DNA of 64,000 nucleotides, from IMG/VR virus record IMGVR_UViG_3300032431_000008, positions 1-64,000 of that record, one strand, 5' to 3'. The notes under the pieces are model-generated. The model did not search any database. It was not told where the DNA came from and worked only from the letters and a program-made list of their open reading frames with translations. Positions 10,739 through 63,973 of this stretch are shown here, piece by piece. Both the position numbers and the translations under genes were made by a program. Source of the DNA: a virus. Within the stretch, counting starts at the first letter, position 1. Every line of letters begins with the position of its first letter.

Positions 10739-11662
10739 ATGCCCACCCTAATCAATAAGGTGTTGGCCAAGTGCGAAGAGCTTGGGCCAGCGGAAGCGGC
10801 TAGATACTTTGGAGTAACCCCCCAAAGTATTTACAACTGGCGCAAAGGCAAAAGCTCGCCGTCCATTGAGGCGATTGAGCATGTGCTTGAAGATGAGGCC
10901 AAGATGAAGCCGCATGACGTCATCCACTGGACCGGGCGCAATGTAATGGTGCTCCTGCCCGTTTACCGGAATGTCTCGATTGAGACCCACTACACCCTGT
11001 TTGCCAACTATGCCAAGTATGGGCCGGAAAAGATCGGCATTATGATTGAGAAGCGCACGCTTATCCATGAGAGCCGGAATATCTTGGTGGACAAGTTTCT
11101 CAAGACAGATGCGGAGTGGTGTATCTTTTTGGACGACGATATGATTATGCCGTTTGGCAACGAGGCTTTGTTTACCCAAAGGTATCGCTGCAATATCCCG
11201 TCTAAGTTTACGTCGCAAACTGCGTTTAGCCGGATAATGTCGCATGATGTGGATAAGCCTATTGTCGGCGCTCTCTACTTTGGGCGGCATGAGTTTGGCC
11301 GTGGTCAATGCGCGGATGGGTTTGCGTCTGACGTGGAGAATGCCGTCCTGCATGACTACAATCAGATTGGCGGACTACGGGAACAGCGTTGGGTGGGGAC
11401 GGGCATGATGCGTATTCACCGCTCGGTTATGGAAAAGATGAAGGCTGCGGCTGAAACTGAATGGCCGCATATCCTGCCAATGAACAATGAAGGGCAACCC
11501 GAGAAGCCGGTTGGCTACTTCACGCCTGACGTTGTAGGCCAAGGTGAGGATGTGGCGTTCTGCCTTCGTGCCGGTAAGCTGGGCATCCCTATTTACTTGG
11601 ACACTGGTTTGGTTTGTTTGCACACGGGCGAAACGCACTTTGGCCCGCATAACACTCGTTAA
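10739..11662 (+). CDS. HTH-glycosyltransferase fusion protein
   Basis: 307 residues. Residues about 15-40 (GPAEAARYFGVTPQSIYNWR) form a clear helix-turn-helix of Cro/terminase-small-subunit type. From about 66 the chain turns into a GT-A glycosyltransferase fold: a first strand VMVLLPVYR, then WCIFLDDDM (128-135), whose DDD is the metal/nucleotide-sugar DxD motif, and a late GEDVAFCLRAGK that resembles the acceptor/base region of family-2 enzymes. The start at 10739 follows the scaffold stop by 4 bp. The fusion of a DNA-binding-like module to a glycosyltransferase next to the capsid gene is odd. Substrate unknown; possible targets are capsid protein or DNA. Confidence 0.75.
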   Translation: MPTLINKVLAKCEELGPAEAARYFGVTPQSIYNWRKGKSSPSIEAIEHVLEDEAKMKPHDVIHWTGRNVMVLLPVYRNVSIETHYTLFANYAKYGPEKIGIMIEKRTLIHESRNILVDKFLKTDAEWCIFLDDDMIMPFGNEALFTQRYRCNIPSKFTSQTAFSRIMSHDVDKPIVGALYFGRHEFGRGQCADGFASDVENAVLHDYNQIGGLREQRWVGTGMMRIHRSVMEKMKAAAETEWPHILPMNNEGQPEKPVGYFTPDVVGQGEDVAFCLRAGKLGIPIYLDTGLVCLHTGETHFGPHNTR

Positions 11663-11683
11663 GTTACTTCTAATTAAAATCTT

Positions 11684-12340
11684 ATGTATATTGTAAATGA
11701 TAGACTGGTCCGGTATAGCGTAGTTGTCGCCAAGATCATTCCGGCAAAGGGAAAGAAGCGGGAGTTGGTTGCGCAGATTCAGCAAAGCGCGCTCGACTCC
11801 TGGTTAAACGCGGCAAGTAAAGTCGTGCTCTTAAACAGGCCCGAGGAGATTCCGTATCTCAACGTAAAAGGTGCGATGTTTGAGGAAAAGTATGCGGATT
11901 CTCCTACGGTTATTTCAGCAATGGCCGTGCTGGGCGAGGAGTTGCCTGATAGTGGCTATGGTGTTCTGGTTGAGGACAGGGTTATCTTGGAACCAAAGGG
12001 CGCGCACGTTATGAACAACGTCAGGCTTGAGGCGCAACTGAGCAAGGCGTGGGTTGCCGTGGCGGACGTAGATGTTGAGGACTTGGACGGCACTTTGCAC
12101 GGGACAGGCGGGGCGGTGTTCTGGATCAGCAAGACAGTGGCCCGCTACCTCAAGGAGAGTTGCAAGAATCCGCCGCTACTGGAAAACTATCCGGTGTGGG
12201 CGTCGTGGTTGCAGGATGAGATTAAGGCCAAGGTGTTTGGGCATAGATACTTTGACGCCAGCCAGCATAACTTGGCCAAGGTAGTTGTGGTTAAGGGATT
12301 CGATGTGGTCGAGCTTACCATGCCATTTACCAAGCACTAA
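11684..12340 (+). CDS. glycosyltransferase-like protein
   Basis: 218 residues. The strand-helix opening (YSVVVAKIIPAKGK, then SALDSWLNAASKVVLLN) and the acidic VAVADVDVEDLDG (about 124-136) resemble a GT-A fold with a DxD-like site. No family is certain. It is the second of four consecutive genes of this type between scaffold and capsid, starting 21 bp after the HTH fusion and ending 1 bp before the next. Confidence 0.6.
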   Translation: MYIVNDRLVRYSVVVAKIIPAKGKKRELVAQIQQSALDSWLNAASKVVLLNRPEEIPYLNVKGAMFEEKYADSPTVISAMAVLGEELPDSGYGVLVEDRVILEPKGAHVMNNVRLEAQLSKAWVAVADVDVEDLDGTLHGTGGAVFWISKTVARYLKESCKNPPLLENYPVWASWLQDEIKAKVFGHRYFDASQHNLAKVVVVKGFDVVELTMPFTKH

Positions 12341-12341
12341 A

Positions 12342-13088
12342 ATGAGAACCGATATTCTACTTGTAACCTACCGGAAAGACTATGATTGGGCGGTGCTTTG
12401 TTTGCGCTCCATTGAGAAGTTCGCGTTTGGATTTGGGGGCGTAACATTGGCGTGTCCGGTGGACGACGAAGCAATCTTCGTGGCATTGGCAGCGAAGCAT
12501 AGCCGGTCCGACCTGCCAATTCTGGTGAGGAGCTATATTCCAAAGAAGGGGTATGAGTTCAATCATCATCAGGTAATGAAGTGCTACTCCGATGTGCTGT
12601 GTCCAAAGGCTGACTACGTGCTGCATATTGATTCGGACTGCATCTTTACGGACTTGGTGGCCCCGAATGACTACTTCAAGGACGAGAAGCCATACCTGTT
12701 AATGCGGATGTATCAGCATAGCGAGCCGTGGTATATCTGGCGGAAGCCAACTAGCCTGGCGCTGGGGGTGGCGTGTAACTATGAGACTATGGTAAGGCAC
12801 CCTGCCGTTCATCCCGTGGCGACATATCGGGACTTGCGCGGATACATGGAGACGCTGCACGGCATACCCTTTAGTGAGTGGGTGCTTAAGCAGTCGGGGA
12901 ATTACCCGGCCTGTCACTTTTCGGAGTTCAACACGCTTGGCAGTTACGTCCTGATTGCCTGTGCGGAGCGATACGAAGTGATTGACACCGACAAGGTAGA
13001 GCAACCGCCAAGTAATTTGGTCCAAGGGTGGAGTTGGGGCGGGGCGGACAAAGCAAAGCAAGACTATGAAAAAATCCTCTCGCGGTAA
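12342..13088 (+). CDS. glycosyltransferase-like protein
   Basis: 248 residues. It opens MRTDILLVTYRKDYDWA, a typical first strand of GT-A enzymes, and contains DYVLHIDSDCIF with the DSD motif at 97-99. I chose ATG 12342 because the preceding gene ends at 12340 and the homologous opening strand begins there. Its 3' end overlaps the next gene by 23 bp. Confidence 0.7.
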   Translation: MRTDILLVTYRKDYDWAVLCLRSIEKFAFGFGGVTLACPVDDEAIFVALAAKHSRSDLPILVRSYIPKKGYEFNHHQVMKCYSDVLCPKADYVLHIDSDCIFTDLVAPNDYFKDEKPYLLMRMYQHSEPWYIWRKPTSLALGVACNYETMVRHPAVHPVATYRDLRGYMETLHGIPFSEWVLKQSGNYPACHFSEFNTLGSYVLIACAERYEVIDTDKVEQPPSNLVQGWSWGGADKAKQDYEKILSR

Positions 13089-13851
13089 AATCTTGCTCAA
13101 CATGCAAATGTCCCCCTTGGACTACAATCAGGGGGTGGCGTTGCTTAAGCTTATCTGTGATTTAGAGGACGGGAAACGCGAGGATGTGATTCTCATGCTC
13201 ACCCATCGCTATGACATGAAGGTTGATCCCAACTTGGTGAGTGCGGTTAAGCAGAAGTTTCAGCATGTGCTGACCCATGTTACCGAGCGGAAAGGCAACG
13301 GCTGGCCCGCTGGTCCCAATGCCATGATGGGGGATAGCTACTTGGCGGCGATAAACATGCAGCGCAGGGGCTTGGATATAGACGCGGTGATGTTCATGGA
13401 GTGTGACTGCGTGCCATTGGCCAAGGATTGGATAGACCAACTCAAGGCCGAGTGGGATAGTTGCCGTGAAGCGGGGAAGAGCGTCCTTGGCGCTTGGCTG
13501 GAAGTGGGGGATGCGGGAGGTAAGCATATTAACGGTAACTGCATTATTGCGGTGGACTACTGGCAGAAGAACCGGGGCATACTGAACTCGCCGGAAAACA
13601 TTGGGTGGGATGCCTACCACGCGAATAGCATGTGTGCGGAAGGTTTGGCTAGCAGACTTATTTACTCGGACTATCGGCTAGGGACTGCGGATAATCCGTG
13701 GAAGGGAGATGCGTATCTATGGGAAGCCAAGGGATATGGGACTGTAACTAATCCGTTTTTCGGGGAAAAACTATTCCCGGTGTGGCTGCATGGGGTGAAA
13801 ACTTTACAGGGGATAGAGGCAGTGTGTAAAAAACTATTGACTTCCGGTTAA
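13066..13851 (+). CDS. glycosyltransferase-like protein
   Basis: 261 residues. AVMFMECDCVPL (108-119) stands where DxD/ExD sits in GT-A folds, and KGNGWPAGPNAMM (76-88) resembles a nucleotide-sugar loop. It is the last of the four glycosyltransferase-like genes. A 209-bp gap follows before the capsid gene. Confidence 0.65.
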   Translation: MKKSSRGKILLNMQMSPLDYNQGVALLKLICDLEDGKREDVILMLTHRYDMKVDPNLVSAVKQKFQHVLTHVTERKGNGWPAGPNAMMGDSYLAAINMQRRGLDIDAVMFMECDCVPLAKDWIDQLKAEWDSCREAGKSVLGAWLEVGDAGGKHINGNCIIAVDYWQKNRGILNSPENIGWDAYHANSMCAEGLASRLIYSDYRLGTADNPWKGDAYLWEAKGYGTVTNPFFGEKLFPVWLHGVKTLQGIEAVCKKLLTSG

Positions 13852-20357: not shown

Positions 20358-21528
20358 TTCAACTATCTCACAGTCTGCTTGCGTAAACTACACTGTATCA
20401 GTTATTGACTCTGTAACTGGCGAGGAAGTGAAGCGATACCCACGGAAGAGAAACTTGATCCTAGACCAAGGGTTAAACCAGATTGCAGTAAACTCTTGGG
20501 TCCAGTGTTTTGCCGTAGCAGCTTTAGGCACGGGAACGACGCCCACAAATCGCAGGAACGCTTCAATAACCTTTACCCGTTCGGGCACTACGGTAACGGC
20601 ATCTGCTGCATTTTTCGTCAACTCGGATGTTGGAACTTTGCTTAAGTTCGACACTGGCGCAGAGATGTATATTACGGCGTTCACCTCGGATACCGTTGTC
20701 ACGGTTGGCGTATCGGGAGCCTTGTCAGCATCACAAGGGACTGTCTGGTTCGTAAATCAGACAGCTCTAATTACCGAGACTAAACGTAGCCAAACTTACA
20801 GCAATAACGGTGGGGCAAATGGTTCGACTTATGTAGGTGGCATCTACACCCACAAGAGAACATTTGTTTTCTCGGCGGAGTCCGGCAATATCACGTATAG
20901 GGAAATTGGCTGGTCATGGACGGCCACGGTGGGCGCAAACTTATTTGGGCGCGATCTATTTCCGGGTGCTGGGATAAGCCTAACCGCTTCGCAGCAACTC
21001 CAAGTTATTGTAGAGTTGGCCGTAACCTATTCACCTGTCACCCCTATCTCCTACACAAATGTCATAACAGGTGGATTTGGGGGTAATGGGAATCAGTGTT
21101 TGGAATGGATTATAACGACATCTGTAAATACCAACGGAACAACTGGTAATGATAGTGTAAATAGCGCCAGAATGGACCCATACGCCAACAGGCAAACATG
21201 CCTATCTACGACTGCTAGTGCTCTGAGAAATGGGTCTCTTGCGAGTAACGATATAGGCAGTCAGACTCAATCAACTGACGTAAGTTTAGCAAAAGCTTCT
21301 TATACTGCCGGTTCTTTTAGATTCGTAGAAACCGGCGTCCTGGGGATTGCCAATGGAAACAGAAGCGATTGGCGGTCTATAATTATAGGGAACGTAAACG
21401 TAAACAATGGAAATTTAGTAAGCACTTACTTCAGAATCCTGCTAGATGCCTCCGCCACCAAGCTCTCAACCCATACGCTTTCACTTACATTCACTATGAA
21501 TTGGGGAAGGGTGCTGGTTAATGTTTGA
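20344..21528 (+). CDS. putative tail fibre / receptor-binding protein
   Basis: 394 residues from ATG 20344. The open frame extends upstream to 20257, but the ATG at 20344 fits the 14-bp overlap and an N-terminal MSSLNSTISQS. Thr/Ser/Asn/Gly-rich beta protein with a few aromatic residues, as in phage fibres. The first 60 residues (SVIDSVTGEEVKRYPRKRN) resemble the start of many phage tail proteins. Codon use is more A/T-rich than flanking genes, which suggests recent exchange. Confidence 0.65.
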   Translation: MSSLNSTISQSACVNYTVSVIDSVTGEEVKRYPRKRNLILDQGLNQIAVNSWVQCFAVAALGTGTTPTNRRNASITFTRSGTTVTASAAFFVNSDVGTLLKFDTGAEMYITAFTSDTVVTVGVSGALSASQGTVWFVNQTALITETKRSQTYSNNGGANGSTYVGGIYTHKRTFVFSAESGNITYREIGWSWTATVGANLFGRDLFPGAGISLTASQQLQVIVELAVTYSPVTPISYTNVITGGFGGNGNQCLEWIITTSVNTNGTTGNDSVNSARMDPYANRQTCLSTTASALRNGSLASNDIGSQTQSTDVSLAKASYTAGSFRFVETGVLGIANGNRSDWRSIIIGNVNVNNGNLVSTYFRILLDASATKLSTHTLSLTFTMNWGRVLVNV

Positions 21529-21842
21529 TGAAAAACAGAATCTACAATCCATTGACCCGGCGAATGGAAGTCGAGGGGTCGGAGCACCACAAGCCTAGCT
21601 TCATCGCCATGGCTAGCAGCTTGCTCGATGCTGCCGTAAACACGGTTAAACGTGTGGCGGACGGGGAAAAGGTTCTGGCTACGGATGAGGTGCTGGCGGA
21701 GCGCAAAGCTACGTGCCTGGAGTGCCCCCAATGGAACCCCCGTGGGTGGGGTGGGCTGGGCAAGTGCGAGGCGTGTGGGTGCAGCGGGCTAAAGCTTACG
21801 CTGGCGGCAAGTCAGTGTCCCCTTGGCAAGTGGGAAAGGTAA
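21528..21842 (+). CDS. small zinc-ribbon-like protein
   Basis: 104 residues from ATG 21528, overlapping the previous stop by one base. The C-terminal half has C-x2-C (CLEC), then CEACGC and a further Cys (QCPLGKW), a spacing suited to a zinc ribbon. Similar small Cys proteins occur in phage structural blocks, but I cannot name the family. Confidence 0.65.
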   Translation: MKNRIYNPLTRRMEVEGSEHHKPSFIAMASSLLDAAVNTVKRVADGEKVLATDEVLAERKATCLECPQWNPRGWGGLGKCEACGCSGLKLTLAASQCPLGKWER

Positions 21843-25190: not shown

Positions 25191-26096
25191 ATGAGCAACG
25201 TCCTTCCACTTACAATTCGCACAGGTGCACTCCCGCCCAATGCTACATATACTCCGCAGCAGTTCTTGGACGTGCTGGCGACGGCCTTGCAAATCGAGAG
25301 TCAGACACAGTTTGCTTTGTTCGTGTCGGGGGCGGTGGAGCCTGTCTTTAACGCGGGGCCATTCCTGCGTGACGGGATTACTTGGCGGGTGTGGAAGGAT
25401 TCGCTGGGGGCTTATGGCCCGCTGGTGCTGGAGCAGGAGTCGCTACGGTATGCGGTAAGCTTTACCGCACCTGACGAGACCAAGTATGACTTCTGGATTA
25501 AGTTGGATGGAGCGGGTAAAGGGCAAGGTGTGTTCAAGTATTTTGGTGCGGCGTGGGTGGATGTTTACTCGGATATATTCTACTCTAAGGCGCAGATTGA
25601 CACGGCGATTGCCGGGGCTTTGCCGGTGGGAATGATGTTTCCTTTTGCCGGTGCGGCTGCGCCTACGGGTTATTTGTTGTGTAATGGCGCTCCGGTAAGT
25701 CGGGTAACTTTCGTGCAATTGTTCAATGTGACGGGCACTACCTATGGAGCCGGTGATTTGCTGACTACTTTTAACGTGCCTGACTTGCGCGGGCGCACGC
25801 TTGTTGGAGCTGGCGTAGGGGATGCTGTTGACGCTACTACGTGGAATCGCGGGCAGAAATACGGTGCGGAAACGGTAGCTCTGACGACGGCGCAAATACC
25901 CGCTCATTCCCACGGGGTTAATCAATATGGTGCTAATAGCACGTCTAGCGGCGGTTTCAATAACACGCCTCCGCAGAACTCAAATAATCAGGTAACAACG
26001 CTTTACACTGGTTTCCAGACTACTGAAACTGGCGGCGGTCTAAGCCACGCAAACATACAGCCTTCATTGGGAATCAACTACATCATCAAGACCTAA
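25191..26096 (+). CDS. tail collar fibre protein
   Basis: 301 residues. Residues about 145-210 match the phage Tail Collar domain: PVGMMFPFAG, PTGYLLCNGAPVSR, LFNVTGTTYGAGD, FNVPDLRGR. The C-terminus has IPAHSHGVN and a final NIQPSLGINYIIK, also typical. The N-terminal 140 residues are a globular attachment domain (WRVWKDSLGAYGPLVLEQE). It ends TAATG, overlapping the next gene by one base. Confidence 0.88.
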   Translation: MSNVLPLTIRTGALPPNATYTPQQFLDVLATALQIESQTQFALFVSGAVEPVFNAGPFLRDGITWRVWKDSLGAYGPLVLEQESLRYAVSFTAPDETKYDFWIKLDGAGKGQGVFKYFGAAWVDVYSDIFYSKAQIDTAIAGALPVGMMFPFAGAAAPTGYLLCNGAPVSRVTFVQLFNVTGTTYGAGDLLTTFNVPDLRGRTLVGAGVGDAVDATTWNRGQKYGAETVALTTAQIPAHSHGVNQYGANSTSSGGFNNTPPQNSNNQVTTLYTGFQTTETGGGLSHANIQPSLGINYIIKT

Positions 26097-26941
26097 TGGA
26101 GCTGGCTGAAATAACATCCGGCTTAGGGGTAGTGACGGCTAAGCGGGTGGAAGAGGCCATTGATAAGCTCCTATTACTGCCGCAAGCCAAGTGCGAGGTG
26201 TTGCACCATTTCCCTGAGCCGGGGGTGTATCTGCGCGAGGCGAGGTTTCCGGCTGGTGCGATGGTGATTGGTCATCATCAGAACTTTGCGCAGACGAATA
26301 TCTTTGCGAAGGGGAGGGTGACAATGCTTTTGGACGACGGGACTACCTTGGAGTTAAAGGCACCGATGAGTTACCACGGGAAGCCTGGGCGGAAGATTGG
26401 GTATATCCATGAGGACGTTGTGTGGTATAACGTCTATCAGACCGATGAGCAGGACATTGAGAAGCTTGAGGCTTACTACCTGACCAAGCCCGAATCGTTT
26501 AACCGGCGTCCTGCGGATGAGCGTAAGTTATTGGCCGCGATCCATGCACAAGGTGATTACCGGGGGATGATAATGGACAAGGGGATGGAGCAGGAGGCGA
26601 TTGACTTGGTGGTGAAGGATGAGAGCGACATGGTGGACATGCCCCACGGGAGCTACAAGTGGCAGCTAGGCTCGTCGTTAATCCACGGTAAGGGGATAAT
26701 GGCGACGGCGGACATTGCGGTGGATGAGGAGATAGGGGCGGCAAGGCTGGGTGGTGGCAGGACGCAGCTAGGAAGGTTCACCAACCACAGTTCTAGGCCC
26801 AATGCGAGGTTTCGCTACTTGGACAATGGGGATATTCACCTTTACGCGATAAGCCCCATAGAAGGGCAGCGGGGGGGTGTTGTCGGGGACGAGATTTTGA
26901 TTGATTATCGGGAGCCTTTAGCTCAAATCCATAACATATAA
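26096..26941 (+). CDS. cupin-SET domain protein
   Basis: 281 residues. Residues about 43-125 read as a cupin barrel (GVYLREARFPAGAMVIGHHQ with HH at 60-61, then GRVTMLLDDGT and H106). Residues about 192-274 form a SET-type core: HGKGIMA (197-203), NHSSRPNA (230-237, the signature NHSxxPNA) and GDEILIDY (264-271). SET proteins use S-adenosylmethionine to methylate protein lysines, but the usual GE-x-I turn here reads DEEIG and the pre/post-SET cysteines are absent. It lies inside the virion operon with a one-base overlap, which implies a structural substrate or virion incorporation. Activity not certain. Confidence 0.8.
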   Translation: MELAEITSGLGVVTAKRVEEAIDKLLLLPQAKCEVLHHFPEPGVYLREARFPAGAMVIGHHQNFAQTNIFAKGRVTMLLDDGTTLELKAPMSYHGKPGRKIGYIHEDVVWYNVYQTDEQDIEKLEAYYLTKPESFNRRPADERKLLAAIHAQGDYRGMIMDKGMEQEAIDLVVKDESDMVDMPHGSYKWQLGSSLIHGKGIMATADIAVDEEIGAARLGGGRTQLGRFTNHSSRPNARFRYLDNGDIHLYAISPIEGQRGGVVGDEILIDYREPLAQIHNI

Positions 26942-26942
26942 T

Positions 26943-27893
26943 ATGAGCGCAGCAATCACAGCAGCCGTAGTTGGCGCGGGAATCTCAGCCGCAGGCGCGA
27001 GCCGAGCGGCTAGGGCTGGCCGCACAAGGGCGCAGAGCGTGGACATTGATAGGCTCAACACGCAGGCCACGGGTATAGCCGGGACTAATGCGCGGGCATC
27101 TATTGCACTGGAGAATGAGCTGACGCCCGAAGTGGCGCAGTTGCGTAGTGAATCCATCAGGCAGTTGCTTGGCGATATGGGCGGAGAGGACCAAACCACG
27201 GCCCTCCTGCGCGACCGATTTGCGGCTATGCTTAGTGGTGAGGGCGGCGGGGATATATCTCTGCTTAGAGCCGCGAATAACCGTGCTGCGGAAGACTTGG
27301 CGATGGGCAGTGAGATACCCTTGGATGTAAGGAATCAAATGGTAAGGGTGAGTGCGGCCAATGCGGCTAGTGTGGGCGGGGGTGGGCTAGGACTTGGGCG
27401 TGACATTGTTGCGCGAGACCTTGGGCTGAACTCGCTGCAACTGCGTGATAACCGTTTAACCAATGCCCTAGCATCTGGTCAGGCTTTTTTTAATGCTGGG
27501 CAAGAAGGGCTGGGCAATCAGTTCAATGCGCTATCCGGTCTTGGCAACCTGAGCAATACGGCCTTTGGGCGTCGGCAGGCATTGGCGACCTTGGGGCAGG
27601 CGATTGAGCGGCCACAGGTGGGGCTGTCGCAAGGGAGCATTGCGGATATTTCCGTGGGTAATACCAATGCGAGCAATGCGTCCATGCAGCAGAACGCGGC
27701 GGTGAGGGCGCAGATGTGGAACTCCTTGGGGCAGCTAGGTGGTCAGATGGCTGGGGCTGGGCTGGGTATGTATGCGAATCGAGCACCTACGCAGCCATTG
27801 TCCACGGTGCGCACGCAGCCAACGGCCTCGTCCTTTGGTGGCTCGTTTAACCAGCCATTGGGATTAAACTACAACGCCGGGTTTGGCAGATAA
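26943..27893 (+). CDS. putative internal virion / DNA-ejection protein A
   Basis: 316 residues, Ala/Gly-rich with an N-terminal hydrophobic helix (AAVVGAGISAAGASRAARAG) and later Ala/Leu-rich helices with a glycine-rich C-terminus. The composition and location, first of three genes leading to a giant protein, match ejectosome proteins of short-tailed phages that leave the capsid and span the envelope. No lysozyme domain. Confidence 0.65.
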   Translation: MSAAITAAVVGAGISAAGASRAARAGRTRAQSVDIDRLNTQATGIAGTNARASIALENELTPEVAQLRSESIRQLLGDMGGEDQTTALLRDRFAAMLSGEGGGDISLLRAANNRAAEDLAMGSEIPLDVRNQMVRVSAANAASVGGGGLGLGRDIVARDLGLNSLQLRDNRLTNALASGQAFFNAGQEGLGNQFNALSGLGNLSNTAFGRRQALATLGQAIERPQVGLSQGSIADISVGNTNASNASMQQNAAVRAQMWNSLGQLGGQMAGAGLGMYANRAPTQPLSTVRTQPTASSFGGSFNQPLGLNYNAGFGR

Positions 27894-27907: not shown

Positions 27908-29239
27908 ATGGCAACTTTACAAACAGGCTCCGGCCAACTATCGCAGCGCATTGACCCAGGGTTGGTTGACCCGCGCTTGCTTGCTGCGGACTTTTCGCGC
28001 ATAGGCCAAGGGATTGAGCAAGGGATGGGGTTGGCGAACAACTTTGCCACGATGAGGGAGAACGCGCAGATGCGTCCTATCCGTGGTGCGTTGGCTAATT
28101 TCGAGTTGGCAAAGGCGGAGGAGTTTGCGGCGCAGGCGGCTAATCGCGGGGCGTTGGCGGATCTGAACATAGCTGCGTTGGAGGCTGCTCAAGCGCGTAT
28201 GCCTTTGCAGGATGAGGCTTTTGCGTTTAGGTTGGCTCAAGAACAAGAAGACGCACGAATCAAAGCTATGATTCCAAGGGTAATTTCCGAAGGCACGAGC
28301 ACTAGTGGTGGCTTTTTTTCCTCTCCCGATGGCCGTTTTCTTCCGCGTGAAACGATTAGGTCTGGTGAGGCTATCGTTAATGGACAGGTAGTTCCTTTTA
28401 GCAATGTTGTGAACATGGAGTCGTCAGCGGACGTGCAGAACAGATTGAATTCGGAGGCATTGGACAGACGCGGTAAGGAGGCTGCTGTTATGTTCAATGA
28501 GTCGCGTGCAAGGGTGGGTGACTCTGATCCAAGGACTACCGCTGCTATTCCCGTGCAAGGTCAAGACGCACAAGGAAACACAACGGTAACATTTTTCAAT
28601 AATCTTGGTGAAAAATTAGGGACACAGATTACTGGTGTTGTGCCGGTTAGGCCGCTTAGTGCTTTAGACCAGAGAATAGCTAATCTAATGGCGGGTGAAA
28701 ACGCAGCAAGTAATCCTACTGGAGCTGGCGGACAGGTGGCAGAATCTCGGCCTAATCCATTCTTAGGTGGTGGGGGGCAACCTGCTGCTGCCGCGCCTGT
28801 CCAGGCTGCTACGGCTATGCCTGTTGTGGCGGAACAATTTGGTGATTTTCGGGATTTCCTACCTAGAACTACGGTTGGTGCTTCAACTCCTGCTGCGCCC
28901 GGTCGGAGTGCTGGCATGACTGCTATTGTGGGCGAAGCGGTTCCTGCTGGTAAGCCTGCTGCGGCTCCATCGCCATTGGATGCGATAACGAGGAAGCCGA
29001 CTCAAGCCTCAACGGCTAAGCCTGCTTCACGCGCACAAACGCCTCGGGATAAAGCCGCACAGGCATTTCGTAAAAGACAGGCCACTGAAACATTGGCTGA
29101 AATAAGCAAGCTTGTCGCCGATGGTGGAGCAACGGTTATAAACAGGGACGGCAGCACACGCATTGTCCAGTTGAGTCCAGCAAGGGCCAAGGAATTGGAG
29201 AAGGAACGGTTGGCCGCGATTAAAACGCTGGGACTTTAG
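27908..29239 (+). CDS. putative internal virion protein B
   Basis: 443 residues. The N-terminal 130 residues are helical (LLAADFSRIGQGIEQG, LANFELAKAEEFAAQAANRG). The middle is Ala/Pro low-complexity, and the C-terminus is a basic helix (SPARAKELEKERLAAIKTL). No enzymatic motif. It is probably a partner of the neighbouring internal proteins. Confidence 0.6.
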   Translation: MATLQTGSGQLSQRIDPGLVDPRLLAADFSRIGQGIEQGMGLANNFATMRENAQMRPIRGALANFELAKAEEFAAQAANRGALADLNIAALEAAQARMPLQDEAFAFRLAQEQEDARIKAMIPRVISEGTSTSGGFFSSPDGRFLPRETIRSGEAIVNGQVVPFSNVVNMESSADVQNRLNSEALDRRGKEAAVMFNESRARVGDSDPRTTAAIPVQGQDAQGNTTVTFFNNLGEKLGTQITGVVPVRPLSALDQRIANLMAGENAASNPTGAGGQVAESRPNPFLGGGGQPAAAAPVQAATAMPVVAEQFGDFRDFLPRTTVGASTPAAPGRSAGMTAIVGEAVPAGKPAAAPSPLDAITRKPTQASTAKPASRAQTPRDKAAQAFRKRQATETLAEISKLVADGGATVINRDGSTRIVQLSPARAKELEKERLAAIKTLGL

Positions 29240-29287
29240 GGTGGACGATGGGCGGGGAAGATGGTTTACTTTGGTAAAGTAAAAACT

Positions 29288-32200
29288 ATGGCATCCATCG
29301 TCCCCTTTTTTGATGTTGAGCAATCTCCCGAGTGGCAAGGTGGGGACATTGATCGTAAGCGCGAGATACTTAAATCGTGGTATGCCTACAACAGTGATAT
29401 TGTTAAGGGCGATAGCGAGCTAGAGGACATGCTACAAACTACGGCTAACAAGCTGGTTGTGGAACAGGACATTGGGGCAACTGGTTGGGAGAGTGTAGGG
29501 GATGCAGCAAGGACGATTGTGCCCGCTATTGGCGGCACGGTTCTAGGCGGTCTTGTGGCAGCGAGCACGCTAGGTATTGGCGCGGGTGCTGTTCCGGTCG
29601 GTGCGGTAGCCGGTGGCATCTTAGGCGAGACATTGCAACAGAGGGCGGCAATGGAACGAGGCACGCAATTTGGTGGTGCTCCGCTTGCTGCGCTGGCCTT
29701 TGGTGCGGCCAATGCTGTTCCCGGTGGCAGTTTTGCCGGACGTGCGTTAAGGCCGCTGGTTAAAGAGGCAGGGAAGACGGCGGCGAAGTTTGCCGTGCTT
29801 GGCGCTGGCGGTAATGCTATCGAGCAACAAGAGCTTAGGGGCGAGATTAACCCGACTGAGGTTGCTATGGCCGGTGCGCTTACAGGTGTGGGCGGCGGTC
29901 TGTTGGATGGCGGCGTGATGCTTGGTCAACGGGTGCTCCGAGGCCGTGCCCAAGGCGGAATGCCGGTTGTTGATTTGGCGGCTATGTCTCCCGACGACTT
30001 GACTACGGATTCGCTGGCGCGGGTGACTGACTTTAAAGCGGAAGAAGCTTTATCACGGGACGCACAGATGGCGGCGGCAAGGGCTGGCAGGCGGGAAGAG
30101 GATGCGTTTGCCATGGCGGAGGCGCGGCTGTCCGATGACTTGGCCGCTGGGGACTTTGACGCACGGGTTGCGATGGACGATGCGGTTCCGGTTGTTGAGG
30201 AGCCGCCTATTGAGGCAACGCTTTCGATCATGGATGAGACGCCTGTTGAGGCTTTGCCTGCTGCGGCCAATCCTGCGGCGGCACAAATGCCTGAGTTCAC
30301 CCCGTCGCTGGTGGCACAGGCTGACGCTGCACAAGGCGGGTCAATGGAAGCGGTGAACGCAGCGGCCAATCAAATGTCGGGTGCTACTCCGGTGGCTAGG
30401 GAAGGTGCGCGTGGCGATCAGTTCCTTGCTGGTGTAAGACAGGGACAGGCGGATGAGGCAATTACTCCGGTGGATGATTTCACGTCAAGGAACGTAGGCG
30501 GGGCGGTGGATGGCGAGGTGGTTCCTGTCATGGACGAGGCTGCGGCGATGGGCAGGCCATTGGTTGAGCCGGTGGTGGAAGAGTTTGATTCGGCTGGTTC
30601 CATGCTACGTGGTGTTGCGCCAACGACCGAGCGCGTAAAGTGGCAGAATCTCAACAAGCTGGTTAAAGAAGGGGAAGAGCAATTCACCAAAGCGACCAAG
30701 GAGATTAAGGGCAATATCAGCAAGGCGGAGCGCAGGGTAAGGGAGGCCCAACAGGACGCGAACAAGGAGGCGTTACAGCTAGAGCTGGCCCAACGTCGCG
30801 CTGCGGTGGTGAATGAGCTGGGTGAGCCGGTGGACCGCAATGCGGCGCAGGCATTGGCAGACTATGAGAAGGCGCTGTCTATGTATGACCCTTCCACGAA
30901 TGTTCGCGGGGATATTATCAACAGGTTCACGACTGGCCAATACGGCGGAAGGTTGTCCGGCGAGATGGACAATGCGCTTGGAATAGAGGCGGAAGCCGTG
31001 AAGGTGCGCATTGAAAAGGCTGGCAAGATCGCCCTTAAGATGGCGGACAATGAGGCTGTCACGCCAGCGGAGCGGCAGTTCATGAATGACACGCTTACCG
31101 AGCGTGGGAAGGAGCGCCTTGTGGAGTATCAGCGTAAAGCAAAGGCTACCGTGGGCGGTAAGGTGTTAAATGAAAGCTCCGGGGTTGAGCCTGCTGACGA
31201 ATTGCTTGAAGGGTTTAACGAAAGCTTTGAGATATTAGGCGACGAAGATACTAACGGGGCTTTGCAGGCAATCACCGATGCGTTTAACCGGGGAGCCGAG
31301 AAGCCACCGGCCTTTGTCTATCCCGAGTATGACAAGGAGAGCGTGCGTGTGCGTATGAGTGCGGCTGAGCGTGCGCCGGACAAGGTGCGGCAGGCTAGGC
31401 GGGCTGAGCGACTGGCCAAGCAACTGAGCGATGCGGAGGTGGCCAAGGGCGGGGCGATGGGTATTCGTAGCGGAGCATTGCCGTCCGCTGGCGAGCCATT
31501 GCTGGGCGGTGTGGCAGGGTTCTTGTCCACGACGCAGGACGAGGGGGAGAGTGATGAGGAGTTCGCGGAACGCCGGTTAAACAACGCCTTGCTTGGCATG
31601 GGCGTGGCTACGCTGGGCGCGGCGGGGATTCGCCGCTTGGCTAAGGCTATGGGCGTGGAGCCTATGGGGATGGACCTGGAGAAGCTGGGCGCGGCTGTCC
31701 AAAAACCCGCCAAGAAGCGGACTAGGGCTGAGCTGATGGCGGAGTATATTGCTCTTAACGAGGCGGCTGCGGCTGCGCAGAAGGGGACGATCTTTGAGAA
31801 CATGAGCGCGGGCGTGGCGGCTGCTGCTGCGGCTGGGCCGGTGCCGGGGTTTGACGTTAAGGCGGCGGTGGCAGCGCGGGAGCAGGCAAGGAAAGTGGCG
31901 CGGCTAGGGGAAAGAGCTGGTGAAACATTCATGGACAAGGTGAGCCGTAAACCGTTGGAAGTGGGGACTGCGCTTGAGCGAACCTTCTCTTCATCTACGG
32001 ACAAGATCATGCGCCGCCTGGAGAAGACCTTTAACAACACTAATTACGATTTCAATTACTTCCGCGCCAAGCTGAACAACTTCGGGAAGAACCATGCCAA
32101 GGGAGCGGAGTCGTTTATTGATAACGAGCTTCTTCCGCTTAGCTCGGTAGATGGAACTACTGTGGGCGAGTCAAGTATCATGAACTTCCTTCGCACGCCT

Positions 32201-34813
32201 TTCTTTGGTGAGTCTGAGCTTATGATTCGGGCTAAGGCGCAAGGTGTAACCCCCGCTCAATATGGCGCGAACTTGGACACGTTGCTTGAAGCAAAGCTGG
32301 CGAAGAATCTCTATGGCCGTGGCTATACTGCTGACGAGGTGGGCAACTTGATGACTGAGGCGGAAGCGGATGCGTTCATTGGTGCGTTCGGCAAGGATTA
32401 CGAGGCGTCTGCCAGATTTATCAATGATGGCTATAAGCGATTACTGGATAAGAAGGTGGAGAATGGAATGCTGAGCAAAGAGGATGCCGATTTCTGGACC
32501 AAGCTTTCCCCTGATTACGTGCCCTACAACCGCATATTCAGTGAGGACGAGCTGACGGACATGGGCAGCGGGTTTGCCCGTGGCGGCAATGTCATTGGCT
32601 CGCTGAGCAAGGCTGGGTTATTTCCAAAGCGCGAGGGTAGTAGCCGTATGGTTGCGTCTCCGATTGATGGGCTGTTCACCCATGCTGCAACTACGTTCTC
32701 GCAAATGGGCAAGAACATCGCGGCTAAATCTATGGCCGATGCGCTTTACATGGCGAGCAAGATTGACAACAGCATCGTCTCCAAGCCTTTGTTTCGTGTG
32801 AGCGCGCAGGACACTGCGCTCTACGCCAAGGGGACCGTCTTTGATTTAGGCGATGGCAAGTTTCAGTTAATGGGCGAGGGGAATGTCCCCGTGAAGGACA
32901 TAGATGGGCTGTCGGTATTCCTCGATAAGAGTCAGGTAAGGGAAACGTCCGAGGGTAATTTCGTGGGCGACGGCAAGATCATTAACAGTGGTGATGCAAC
33001 GGGTGAGCATGTGCTTACCTACATGGAAGACGGCAATCAGCTAAAGATGGTAGTGAGCAAAGAGGTGGAAGATGCCATGAAGGGGCTGGGCGTGGCGGGA
33101 GTGGGGATATTGGGCAGGCTCATGCGGATTCCCACCTCGATTTCTCGGGCGGGCTTTGTTGGTTTGAGTGCCCCCTTTGCGGCCATGAACGTATTCGTGG
33201 ATACCACGACCTCCATTATCAACACCAAGGGATACAGTGGGCTCAATGACTTGGCAGGTGGCTATGCGAAGTCCTTGACTACGGCCCTAAGCGGCTTTGG
33301 TGGGACGGATAATGAGCTGCGTGAGCTGTATCGCCGGACGCAAAGCAACTTCTTCCAGAAGGATATTCTGCGGGATGCCTCTAAGGACCGTCCTAATTTC
33401 AGCAAGCTCATCAAGCCGGTGACTACCATTGATTGGAATACCCCCATGGATATTTTCAAGAAGATGGAAGATTTCGTGGGCGTGTCAGAGGAGATTACCC
33501 GTCTCAAGATTTTCCAACTGGAGGCAAATCAGTTGGCGCAGGAAGCCTTGGCCAAGGGTGCCAAGATTCAGTTCGACCCCAAGACGCGGGTATGGACCGG
33601 CGAGGATGACGCGATTACCCGGATCTACACCATTGCCGGTGAGCAGTCCATGGAGAGAACGGCCAACTACATCAACCGTGGCAACTGGTCAACGGGCATG
33701 AATAGCGTGTTTTTGTTTTTCCATGCCAATGTGGCAGGCACACGCGCCAACGTCAGGGCGGCACGTAGAGATCCCATGGCGTGGGCGATTAAGGTATTGG
33801 GCGGTGTGGGCGGTGGGCTGGCAGCAGCGACCTACTACAACCTGTCCAGTCCTGAGCGGGCCGAGGTTTATACCAACATCCCGGAGTCTGACCGGCAGAA
33901 TAACTTGCTCTTAGTGGCTCCCAATGGCGAGCGTGACGACGAGGGGAATCCCTTGGTCCTCCGCATCAAGCTTCCCCCAGGTATTGGCCGCGTGGCGCAG
34001 ACGGTGCGGCGGGCGGTTGAGGGGGCTTACGGGTTTGGTCAAGAGACTGGAACCATGGATTACTTCACGAAAGCCGGGGCGGATCTCTTGGCCTTCGGCG
34101 TGCCGCTTGGCGACAGTGGCGCATCTACACTGGTGCCGCAAGGACTCAAGCCTCTGGTCGAGGCGAGCGATACGTTTAACCGGAACCTGTTCAGTGGCCA
34201 GCAAGTGGTGAGCCGCCAGCTACAAGACCTGCCAAGCGAGGATCAGTTTGACTCGCGCACGTCCTTGACGGCAAGGGCCGTGGGCAGGGCGCTTGGGGTA
34301 AGCCCGGTGAAGCTGGACTACATTGGCAAGGGCTATGCCGGTGGTTTATTTGAGCAGGCTATTCAGCTTTCAGACAAGGCCGTGGCTGCGGTCACTGGAC
34401 AGGATGCGGCAGACGGCAAGGGGCGTGGGGTTTTGACGCAGGTGGTTCAACGGTTCACCAAGGGACAGCAGGGTGAGCAGTTGAATCGGTTCTACGCCAA
34501 GATGGACGCGGCCACCGAGACCAAGAAAGGGCTGGACGTGGCGCTTGCCCGTGGAGACACGGCGCGGGCGGATCAACTCTTAGAGGCGGGCATCCCCCAG
34601 CTAGTCAACTATGAGATTCTTACGGGAATCAGGACCAAGATCATGGATAACTACGGGCAAATCCGGCAGTTGGAGAATGTATCCATGGACCGTGCCGAGA
34701 AGGCTGAGCTGGTGCTGATGCTGCGTAACACGAATGCTGAGCTGGCGCGGATAGGCGTCACTATTACTGACAAGATGGAAGCGGACTTGGCTGCGCGGGA
34801 GGCGGGGCGGTAA
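29288..34813 (+). CDS. giant internal virion protein with LPD38-like region
   Basis: 1841 residues from ATG 29288 (the frame opens at 29261; MASIVPFFDVEQ looks like the natural start). Layout: Gly/Ala-rich hydrophobic segment (about 75-220), acidic Ala/Pro linker, long coiled-coil (about 455-525), helical middle with another Gly/Ala segment (about 740-790), and a globular C-terminal third. Around 1470-1560 the chain (MNSVFLFFHANVAGTRANVR, then RIKLPPGIGR) resembles large polyvalent protein-associated domain LPD38, found in giant phage ejection proteins. Role inferred: it is packaged in the capsid and ejected with DNA. No transglycosylase motif was seen. It is the largest gene and ends the structural block. 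Confidence 0.75.
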   Translation: MASIVPFFDVEQSPEWQGGDIDRKREILKSWYAYNSDIVKGDSELEDMLQTTANKLVVEQDIGATGWESVGDAARTIVPAIGGTVLGGLVAASTLGIGAGAVPVGAVAGGILGETLQQRAAMERGTQFGGAPLAALAFGAANAVPGGSFAGRALRPLVKEAGKTAAKFAVLGAGGNAIEQQELRGEINPTEVAMAGALTGVGGGLLDGGVMLGQRVLRGRAQGGMPVVDLAAMSPDDLTTDSLARVTDFKAEEALSRDAQMAAARAGRREEDAFAMAEARLSDDLAAGDFDARVAMDDAVPVVEEPPIEATLSIMDETPVEALPAAANPAAAQMPEFTPSLVAQADAAQGGSMEAVNAAANQMSGATPVAREGARGDQFLAGVRQGQADEAITPVDDFTSRNVGGAVDGEVVPVMDEAAAMGRPLVEPVVEEFDSAGSMLRGVAPTTERVKWQNLNKLVKEGEEQFTKATKEIKGNISKAERRVREAQQDANKEALQLELAQRRAAVVNELGEPVDRNAAQALADYEKALSMYDPSTNVRGDIINRFTTGQYGGRLSGEMDNALGIEAEAVKVRIEKAGKIALKMADNEAVTPAERQFMNDTLTERGKERLVEYQRKAKATVGGKVLNESSGVEPADELLEGFNESFEILGDEDTNGALQAITDAFNRGAEKPPAFVYPEYDKESVRVRMSAAERAPDKVRQARRAERLAKQLSDAEVAKGGAMGIRSGALPSAGEPLLGGVAGFLSTTQDEGESDEEFAERRLNNALLGMGVATLGAAGIRRLAKAMGVEPMGMDLEKLGAAVQKPAKKRTRAELMAEYIALNEAAAAAQKGTIFENMSAGVAAAAAAGPVPGFDVKAAVAAREQARKVARLGERAGETFMDKVSRKPLEVGTALERTFSSSTDKIMRRLEKTFNNTNYDFNYFRAKLNNFGKNHAKGAESFIDNELLPLSSVDGTTVGESSIMNFLRTPFFGESELMIRAKAQGVTPAQYGANLDTLLEAKLAKNLYGRGYTADEVGNLMTEAEADAFIGAFGKDYEASARFINDGYKRLLDKKVENGMLSKEDADFWTKLSPDYVPYNRIFSEDELTDMGSGFARGGNVIGSLSKAGLFPKREGSSRMVASPIDGLFTHAATTFSQMGKNIAAKSMADALYMASKIDNSIVSKPLFRVSAQDTALYAKGTVFDLGDGKFQLMGEGNVPVKDIDGLSVFLDKSQVRETSEGNFVGDGKIINSGDATGEHVLTYMEDGNQLKMVVSKEVEDAMKGLGVAGVGILGRLMRIPTSISRAGFVGLSAPFAAMNVFVDTTTSIINTKGYSGLNDLAGGYAKSLTTALSGFGGTDNELRELYRRTQSNFFQKDILRDASKDRPNFSKLIKPVTTIDWNTPMDIFKKMEDFVGVSEEITRLKIFQLEANQLAQEALAKGAKIQFDPKTRVWTGEDDAITRIYTIAGEQSMERTANYINRGNWSTGMNSVFLFFHANVAGTRANVRAARRDPMAWAIKVLGGVGGGLAAATYYNLSSPERAEVYTNIPESDRQNNLLLVAPNGERDDEGNPLVLRIKLPPGIGRVAQTVRRAVEGAYGFGQETGTMDYFTKAGADLLAFGVPLGDSGASTLVPQGLKPLVEASDTFNRNLFSGQQVVSRQLQDLPSEDQFDSRTSLTARAVGRALGVSPVKLDYIGKGYAGGLFEQAIQLSDKAVAAVTGQDAADGKGRGVLTQVVQRFTKGQQGEQLNRFYAKMDAATETKKGLDVALARGDTARADQLLEAGIPQLVNYEILTGIRTKIMDNYGQIRQLENVSMDRAEKAELVLMLRNTNAELARIGVTITDKMEADLAAREAGR

Positions 34814-61330: not shown

Positions 61331-63973
61331 ATGACCAATGACCAAGTAAAGTTTATCCACTCGCTCTTGGAGCAAGGCAAGGAGAGCTGGGTAGATGCGG
61401 CCAACGCCATTCTCTACATATCCCAAATACCGGGGCAAGTGGCGCACTACGCGGAGGCCAAGATTATTGTGCGGGCGTTCCTGCAAAGGTTGCTGGACCA
61501 TGACGACTACTTGCTGGCAGCTACGTTGCTGTGGGGGAATGTCCGGTTAAACACGCTTACCCAATATACGCAGGACGTGTTTCGGGCCATGCACGAGAAC
61601 AACATGCTTTTGATCCAGGGTGGGGCATCGACGAGTAAGTGTCTAGGGCCGGACATTCCGGTGATGATGCACGACGGATCAACCAAGAAGGCTAGGGACG
61701 TGGTGGTTGGCGACGTGCTCATGGGGGACGACTCCAATCCTCGGAATGTCCTGAGCACCACAAAAGGCAGGAGCAAGATGTATCGAATCACCCCTGAGCG
61801 TGGTGAATCGTGGATTTGCAATGACGAGCATATCCTGACAATGCGCGTGAATCAGGGCGACAAGTGGGCTGTGTTGGATATTCCCATTAAGGAATACATT
61901 GGATACCCGGAGTCGCGTAAGGCTGCGCTCAAGCAGTTTTCCGTTGGGGTGGAGTTTCCAGAGCAGCCGGTTCCCGAAGATCCATACATTTACGGTGTTC
62001 GGGTCGGCAACAATGAGCCTGGCGGGCAACTGATTCCTGAGTCCTACATGAAGAACAGCCGTGAGAATAGGTTTAGGCTTTTGGAGGGACTACTGGATTC
62101 TGATGGATACGTCGGCAAAACGAAAGCTACGGTCGCTATTAAAACCAAGTGGAAGTCACTTGCTGAGCAGATTGTTTGGCTGGCAAAGAGTCTAGGCTTT
62201 TACGCTAGATTCTCTGGTGACTATTCCTTGGTTTATATCAATTTTGACGAATGTAAATCAACTGCCAATGTTGGCATTGAAGTTGAGGGCATTGGGGAAG
62301 GTGAATACTGCGGGTTTAGCGTGGACGGGAATAGCCGATTCCTTTTGGGGGACTTCACCGTTACGCATAACAGCTACTCGATGGGAGCTTGGTTACTCCT
62401 TGACTGGATAAGAGATCCATATTTTACATCGGTCAAAATAGTCTCCAAGGACGAGAAGCATTTGAAGGGTAATTTGTTTGGCCATATCTACTCCCTGTTC
62501 CAAGGCATGGCTATCCCGCTTACGGATAATGACGCGGAAGAAGTGGTATGGCGGGAGCACGATATGTTCCTTGGACTGAAAGCCGTGGGTAACATTGCCG
62601 GTTTGCAGGGGGAGGCACTTAAGCATTCGTCAAGTTCCTCGGGCGACTTGAAAGGGTATAAGCCTCAACCGCGCCGCAAAACGCCTCACCCAAAGTTCGG
62701 GAACATGTCTCGACTGCGGGTAGCGGTGGATGAGGCGCAATCGGCACCTGTGGGTATATTCCAAGATTTCATGTCCGTGCGAGGTTCCTTGGACGGGCTG
62801 GACTTGGTGAAGATCATTTGTGCCTACAATCCTACCAGCCTGAGCGATAGGGTGGTGAATGAGGCTGAACCTCTCCATGGCTGGATTGAGACCGACCTGG
62901 ACACGCTGTATGAGTGGAAGAGCAAGAAGGGGTGGCGCGTGCTCCGGTTGGATGGCTCGCGGTCGGAAAACGTGGTAGCCAAGAGCAAGATATTCAGTGG
63001 CATCCAGACCTACGAAGGCTTTATAAGTTTCCTGCAAGGTGACGGTGCTGACAGTTCTCCCGACTACTTTACGTTCGGGCGTGGCTGGCCACCTCTCAAG
63101 GGTAGTGCCAACACGATTATCCCTGCTACTTGGTGCGTTGAGGCGCGGGGAGAAGCTGTGTGGTTGGAGAAGCCGATTATGGGGGCAAGCGTGGACCTTG
63201 CGTTCCAAGGAAGCGACACGGCGCAGATGACTATTTTTAAGTGGGGGCTGGCAAAGGGCTGGCGACGTGCCGATGGGAAGTATGTCGAGTATGTTGACCG
63301 GACGAGCGCGGGGCGGAAGAAGCCAAGGCACGTACTGGAAGTTTACCAGATTATCCAGATGGAGAAGTCCTACGATTCCATCCAGATGAGTGAGGAGATT
63401 ACGGGTCGCTGTCAGATGTTGGGGATTTCACCGGATTGGACCGTCGTGGACAAGTCGGGTAGCGGCCTTGGCACGTTCTCCCACCTTACGAAGTATTGGG
63501 GGAATATCATGGGGATTATGTGGGGCGATGGTGCTACGGATATGCTTGTCTTGGCGGAGGACCAAGAGGCCGCGTCGTCCCGGTTCCAAGGGATAATGTC
63601 GGAGATGTGGTTTGCTTTCCGTGAGTGGTTAAACCCCACGGTGGGGGCGATAATTATTAACCCCATGGTCCCAACGTCGCCACTAAACGTGCAGTTGAGT
63701 TCACGCCGGTTTAGGTATGCGAAGAACGGGACGATGAAAGTTGAGAGCAAGGACGAGTATAAGCAACGGAACCAACGTAGCTGCGATGAAGCGGACAGCG
63801 TGATTCAGATTGTGCAGCTTATCCGCGCACGGGGGCATATTTTGCCTGGTATGATGGAACAGTCGGACTCCCGTTTCAGTAATCAGGAAACTGAGAAAGC
63901 TGGGCTGGAGACGGCTGACGTTGACGAATCACTTGCAATTGGCGGAGGGGGAGTCGAATACTTGGACCTATGA
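61331..63973 (+). CDS. terminase large subunit interrupted by an intein
   Basis: 880-residue precursor; 636 residues after splicing. The motor ATPase/nuclease that cuts and packages DNA. The Walker A loop is split: IQGGASTSK precedes Cys104, and SYSMGAW follows the intein, giving GGASTSKSYS when joined. Walker B is RLRVAVDEAQ (nt about 62710). The nuclease domain has VDLAFQGSD (nt about 63190), VVDKSGSG and CDEADSV (nt about 63780) as acidic sites. Its stop overlaps the next gene as ATGA across the window junction. Confidence 0.95.
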   Translation: MTNDQVKFIHSLLEQGKESWVDAANAILYISQIPGQVAHYAEAKIIVRAFLQRLLDHDDYLLAATLLWGNVRLNTLTQYTQDVFRAMHENNMLLIQGGASTSKCLGPDIPVMMHDGSTKKARDVVVGDVLMGDDSNPRNVLSTTKGRSKMYRITPERGESWICNDEHILTMRVNQGDKWAVLDIPIKEYIGYPESRKAALKQFSVGVEFPEQPVPEDPYIYGVRVGNNEPGGQLIPESYMKNSRENRFRLLEGLLDSDGYVGKTKATVAIKTKWKSLAEQIVWLAKSLGFYARFSGDYSLVYINFDECKSTANVGIEVEGIGEGEYCGFSVDGNSRFLLGDFTVTHNSYSMGAWLLLDWIRDPYFTSVKIVSKDEKHLKGNLFGHIYSLFQGMAIPLTDNDAEEVVWREHDMFLGLKAVGNIAGLQGEALKHSSSSSGDLKGYKPQPRRKTPHPKFGNMSRLRVAVDEAQSAPVGIFQDFMSVRGSLDGLDLVKIICAYNPTSLSDRVVNEAEPLHGWIETDLDTLYEWKSKKGWRVLRLDGSRSENVVAKSKIFSGIQTYEGFISFLQGDGADSSPDYFTFGRGWPPLKGSANTIIPATWCVEARGEAVWLEKPIMGASVDLAFQGSDTAQMTIFKWGLAKGWRRADGKYVEYVDRTSAGRKKPRHVLEVYQIIQMEKSYDSIQMSEEITGRCQMLGISPDWTVVDKSGSGLGTFSHLTKYWGNIMGIMWGDGATDMLVLAEDQEAASSRFQGIMSEMWFAFREWLNPTVGAIIINPMVPTSPLNVQLSSRRFRYAKNGTMKVESKDEYKQRNQRSCDEADSVIQIVQLIRARGHILPGMMEQSDSRFSNQETEKAGLETADVDESLAIGGGGVEYLDL
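61640..62371 (+). mobile_element. intein in terminase ATP-binding loop
   Basis: 244 residues (precursor 104-347). It starts with Cys (CLGPDIPVMMHDG, splice block A), has block B as WICNDEHIL with the His present and Asn in place of the usual Thr, a single LAGLIDADG-like stretch LLEGLLDSDGYV (block C), a helical block with WLAKSLGF, and ends VTHN (block G) followed by Ser +1. The second LAGLIDADG motif is missing, so the homing part is probably degenerate. Splicing residues (C1, terminal HN, S+1) are intact. Confidence 0.93.

Follow-up and report, generated by a model that had tools for sequence, protein, structure and literature searches.

Cupin-SET proteins encoded beside the DNA ejection genes of short-tailed phages: candidate lysine methyltransferases of virion morphogenesis

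Viral SET domains and the slot between tail and ejection genes

The first report of lysine methylation on proteins of phage virions dates from 2026 and concerns the portal, capsid and other virion proteins of Cellulophaga phages (PMC13288928). These phages were not known to encode methyltransferases and the methylation was ascribed to host enzymes (PMC13288928), whereas the phage presented here carries a putative SET enzyme of its own. Among viral proteins, vSET of PBCV-1 (A612L; 3kma, 1n3j) is likewise a compact SET domain with the same motifs. However, vSET stands alone, is encoded by a virus that infects eukaryotic algae and has histone H3 as its substrate, whereas the protein described below is fused to a cupin, comes from a tailed phage and has no known histone target. 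The best fold match lies with the MLL/KMT2-type SET domains (MLL1, 7u5v), a resemblance that amounts to the superfamily core; MLL/KMT2 proteins are host histone enzymes, and compared with them the phage protein has a much shorter SET-I insert and no Cys-rich post-SET region. The same full-length architecture is found in PHROG 34170, a family of unknown function, and in MW202744, labelled 'pbcV-1 histone H3-lys 27 methyltransferase structure', for both of which we found automatic annotation only. Our literature search returned no paper joining phage, cupin and SET domain, and the protein has no match in NCBIfam.

A homologous cupin without the SET half occurs in proteins of PHROG 12032 and 24280 (Vibrio 234P9, VPMS1, Alteromonas H4/4 and Sphaerotilus R1). 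Judged by position between the tail and ejection genes, the cupin-SET gene occupies the slot of T7 gene 13 (gp13, PF11090) and P22 gene 14 (gp14, PF11039). No sequence relation of the cupin-SET protein to either was found, and comparison of P22 gp14 with T7 gp13 gave a probability of 6.5. In a T7-like Pseudomonas phage the slot holds a GNAT acetyltransferase (PMC10142737). When the P22 gp14 profile was searched with a GNAT relationship in mind, the only match was a weak one to 3ct8 (E 0.32).

The locus and the predicted fold of its cupin-SET protein

The window analysed here is 64,000 bases long, and the IMG/VR virus record from which it is taken has 64,108. By position and weak matches, its genes run in the order portal, scaffold, coat, fibres, tail tube, fibre, cupin-SET and three internal virion proteins, an order like that of P22- and T7-like short-tailed phages. 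The initial annotation had placed the cupin-SET gene between a collar fibre and internal virion proteins with a one-base overlap, and the ORF coordinates, the Pfam Collar match and an iterated gp7 profile all agree with this. The ATG overlaps the stop of the upstream fibre ORF by one base (TAATG), and a single nucleotide separates the cupin-SET stop from the next ORF (Table 1). The label 'internal virion protein' also holds for that next ORF, which iterated profiles tie to the P22 gp7 ejection family; the protein joins this family only after iteration, with E 4.5e-8 before clear inclusion and a strong compositional bias. The same gp7-type profile recognises P22 gp7 itself, and phrog_598 ('DNA ejection') is matched by four representatives that adjoin cupin or cupin-SET genes. 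The putative second ejection protein of the window (27908-29239) has no family match in Pfam or PHROG.

Table 1. Features of the cupin-SET gene and its neighbours in the window, with the basis of each assignment
Feature	Position	Strand	Basis
Collar-domain tail fibre, upstream of cupin-SET	25191..26096	+	Pfam Collar, 4.4e-19
Cupin-SET gene, 281 aa	26096..26941	+	Uninterrupted ORF; PHROG 34170; Pfam SET; AlphaFold2
Cupin barrel, residues 30-132	26183..26491	+	VIA Z about 9 to cupins; PHROG 12032, 24280
Helical linker, residues 133-181	26492..26638	+	Secondary structure of AlphaFold2 model; conserved D154, D178, P183
SET domain, residues 182-276	26639..26923	+	VIA alignment to MLL1 SET and vSET
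GxG AdoMet motif, G198-K199-G200	26687..26695	+	Both glycines invariant in 165 relatives
NHSSRPN motif, residues 230-236	26783..26803	+	N230 165/165, H231 164/165, N236 163/165
GDEILIDY motif, residues 264-271, putative catalytic Tyr271	26885..26908	+	E266 and Y271 in every relative not cut off there (162/165)
P22 gp7 / phrog_598 'DNA ejection' type protein, downstream, 316 aa, 0 Lys	26943..27893	+	Iterated profile; neighbours of relatives match phrog_598; lysine count
Putative second ejection protein (gp20/gp15 position), candidate substrate, 13 Lys	27908..29239	+	Position only
Large internal virion protein (gp16 position, LPD38 domain), candidate substrate, 97 Lys	29261..34813	+	Pfam LPD38, 4.8e-23; position; lysine count

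On an alignment of 44 relatives, AlphaFold2 returned a model of the cupin-SET protein with a pLDDT of 91.9 and a pTM of 0.88, in which the 281 residues are predicted to form an N-terminal cupin barrel, a set of helices and a C-terminal SET domain. Both the cupin-like barrel and the SET core proposed in the initial annotation are borne out. The full-length protein matches PHROG 34170 over residues 6-277 (E 3.1e-66). The Pfam SET model gives 24.1 bits (E 5.2e-5), above its curated cut-off of 22.4, and all 39 SET halves compared match it at E below 0.01. A profile built from the 44 sequences finds MLL1 SET (2.6e-8) and vSET (2.1e-5) in the PDB. In VIA-align, residues 182-272 superpose on MLL1 SET (7u5v) with Z 10.4, an rmsd of 1.8 over 79 aa and 28% identity, and residues 186-271 on vSET (3kma) with Z 9.5 over 80 of 105 aa. 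Thus the predicted fold has SET topology and, within the SET motifs covered here, the AdoMet and catalytic residues are kept; a lack of either would have told against the initial annotation. In the model the SET-I region is very short and no Cys-rich post-SET follows; the C-terminal helix 272-280 could close the lysine channel instead.

For the cupin half, Foldseek gives 1.5e-5 to 2fqp, and the VIA matches are to ppnP (7eyp), ectoine synthase (5bxx) and DddK. The earlier suggestion that this half might bind a metal or serve in demethylation is not supported by the ligand positions. Counted by motif spacing, without coordinates, the motif 1 positions are H60, Q62 and Q66 and the motif 2 histidine position is Gly102; neither HxH(x3-4)E...H nor the HxD/E...H pattern of JmjC proteins is present by this count. 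As the metal ligands are mostly lost, a role as demethylase, dioxygenase or other metal enzyme is unlikely and we take the cupin as a binding module. It may serve docking or assembly without a metal and bring the SET domain to its target, and it may have been the original occupant of the slot.

Conservation, distribution and modular versions

This protein family is genuine, widespread and hardly described so far; it represents a variant among the known SET proteins and not a new kind. One profile scan recovered 556 related loci in IMG/VR and 12 relatives in bacterial genome contigs. Across 165 fused relatives, S194, G198, G200, T223, G226, R227 and N230 are invariant; the scans were partly selected on RTxxGR..N, which biases the invariance of G226, R227, N230 and H231 and leaves GxG, E266, D270 and Y271 free of bias. 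The SET motifs are near-invariant among relatives that share 22-63% identity, and Tyr271, the NH motif and GxG are conserved as tightly as anything else in the protein. The longer NHSSRPNA string, residues 230-237, on which the SET assignment was first made together with GDEILIDY, includes the second of these motifs. D154, D178 and P183 are the conserved positions in or near the linker.

The median dN/dS is about 0.08 for the cupin and about 0.11 for the SET half, with values near 0.5 in a few divergent, near-saturated pairs; judged by these ratios, both halves are mostly under purifying selection. With relatives in 556 viral loci and mostly purifying selection on both halves, the cupin-SET protein lies well beyond chance, and the conservation and dN/dS rule out a chance or decayed ORF. 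A search for an anti-phage defence protein gave no PADLOC match.

A gp7-type protein was detected at 143 of the 165 fused loci, and in all 143 it is the next gene on the same strand. SET enzyme genes thus placed in a virion operon occur in cultured phages too, namely Rhodoferax phage P26218 and Pseudoalteromonas phage PH1. The two halves also occur apart. The T7-family phage Sphaerotilus R1 has a bare cupin in the slot, and cupin-only versions are found at L009, L010, L011, L013 and L101, among others; in the first four of these, which were checked, the cupin precedes ejection or internal virion genes. In L103 cupin and SET are successive genes, and in L183 the order is SET, cupin, ejection gene. 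Some genes have a SET half and the helical linker but no cupin: in L139, L147 and L155 they stand between the portal and scaffold genes, and in L185 and L186 beside terminase and portal. The second part of the linker also accompanies SET-only genes (L102, L139 and L147). In the SET tree, the portal-slot genes cluster with a fused gene (96/84), so that fusion and fission have happened more than once. That the halves are sometimes separate neighbours and sometimes fused points to one shared function.

In L185 and L186 the SET-only gene comes before the terminase and portal genes and directly after a gene that by eye is possibly 2OG-Fe oxygenase-like (its PHROG matches are minor coat protein and endonuclease V). 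A more distant SET-only branch includes a gene of some 100 aa that immediately precedes the gp25 baseplate wedge gene in cyanomyoviruses (L012 and L106) and members placed elsewhere in L107, L108, L184 and L187. Some SET-only cousins lie outside virion clusters: P-SSM7, where the gene is near nrdB, Kolga, L184 and L187. A small Cys-rich, zinc-ribbon-like protein of the virion cluster in the window (21525-21842) recurs in L180 (5375-5608), there after a SET-only gene.

Candidate substrates and function

The adjacent ejection protein is ruled out as a lysine substrate in this phage, since it has no lysine in its 316 residues and 25 arginines, where about 14 lysines would be expected from the other virion-cluster proteins; among 110 relatives of this gp7-like protein, no alignment column has lysine in more than 43%. 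The substrate must therefore be another virion protein or a host protein. The initial annotation had proposed methylation of virion proteins, or of host targets after ejection, and of this only the simplest form, that the enzyme methylates its neighbour, falls away. The proteins at the gp20 and gp16 positions, portal, scaffold, coat and host proteins are left as candidates.

We consider it about an even chance (roughly 0.5) that the cupin-SET protein is a working SET lysine methyltransferase that acts late, as part of virion morphogenesis. On this reading, an AdoMet-dependent enzyme would be made late and tethered to the morphogenesis machinery by its cupin. Its target would be a lysine of a morphogenesis or ejection protein other than the gp7-like one, most likely the gp20- or gp16-position protein, portal, scaffold or coat, and methylation during assembly may adjust folding, packing or the ejection step. 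In favour are the SET fold and sequence, AdoMet and catalytic motifs that are near-invariant in the 165 fused relatives, the mostly purifying selection and the lysine methylation seen on virion proteins of Cellulophaga phages. Also in favour are the fixed slot directly before the ejection genes, the interchange with cupin-only and split versions, and the SET-only cousins at portal and scaffold (L139 and L147), terminase and portal (L186) and gp25 (L012 and L106). Against it stand the SET-only cousins outside virion clusters, the few dN/dS values near 0.5, the lack of lysine in the adjacent protein and the attribution of Cellulophaga phage methylation to host enzymes. In addition, relatives that lack a SET half get by with only the cupin, which means that methylation is not a general requirement.

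A different role would be that of a packaged effector: the virion would carry the protein, which would pass into the host together with the ejection proteins and there methylate proteins of the host, much as vSET does histone H3. vSET is the closest viral structural match in the PDB (Z 9.5), it is packaged and methylates host H3K27 (PMC7019647), the cupin-SET gene sits with the ejection-protein genes, and in Cellulophaga phage infections the methylation of host proteins goes up at an early stage (PMC13288928). However, the T7 cryo-EM paper examined makes no mention of the same-slot protein gp13 and no band is listed for the same-slot protein of phage G11, both of other families, and the SET-only cousins beside portal and scaffold genes fit assembly better. 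We regard delivery into the host as unlikely, although it is the strongest of the competing accounts.

The same genomic neighbourhood could also suit an assembly chaperone, with the cupin as the working part in assembly of gp7/gp20/gp16-type proteins and the SET domain binding a client without methylating it. The slot is common to P22 gp14, a head morphogenesis protein, and T7 gp13, a probable scaffold protein according to Pfam, and cupin-only versions suffice in many phages. The tight conservation of Tyr271, the NH motif and GxG speaks against a SET domain that merely binds, which makes this account rather improbable. Least probable is a short tail fibre or adhesin with cupin and SET as rigid beta domains lacking catalysis: SET-less relatives with the same cupin (PHROG 12032, 24280) carry the labels 'short tail fiber' or 'tail fiber adhesin' and a collar fibre gene lies upstream, but the fibre label in Alteromonas phages rests only on HHpred/Phyre2 resemblance to KdgF and DMSP lyase (PMC8228385), the gene tracks ejection genes, and a purely structural role would not require near-invariant SET motifs.

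A late methyltransferase of morphogenesis would make the cupin-SET protein a good candidate for a phage enzyme that has so far been missing, one that methylates proteins of the virus particle, in a setting where SET enzyme genes lie in the virion operon of hundreds of short-tailed phages, some of them cultured. If active, it would offer a tractable system for studying what protein methylation contributes to the assembly of the virus and the ejection of its DNA. It would also suggest a role for a podophage gene slot that is among the least understood, that of T7 gene 13 and P22 gene 14. More tentatively, and with considerable doubt, the tail-ejection slot of short-tailed phages might be a general place for protein-modifying or modification-derived factors (GNAT-type in at least one T7-like phage, cupin and cupin-SET) that prepare ejection or capsid proteins, with cupin-SET as the first lysine-methylation system that a phage encodes for its own particle.

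Two further features of the window were noted. Between the scaffold-position and coat-position genes lie three possible glycosyltransferase-like genes (10748-13851), the first of which, unusually, combines this with an N-terminal helix-turn-helix. The terminase large subunit ORF (61331-63973) carries an intein-like insertion made up of a Hint domain (4.6e-13) and a LAGLIDADG homing endonuclease (1.6e-8).
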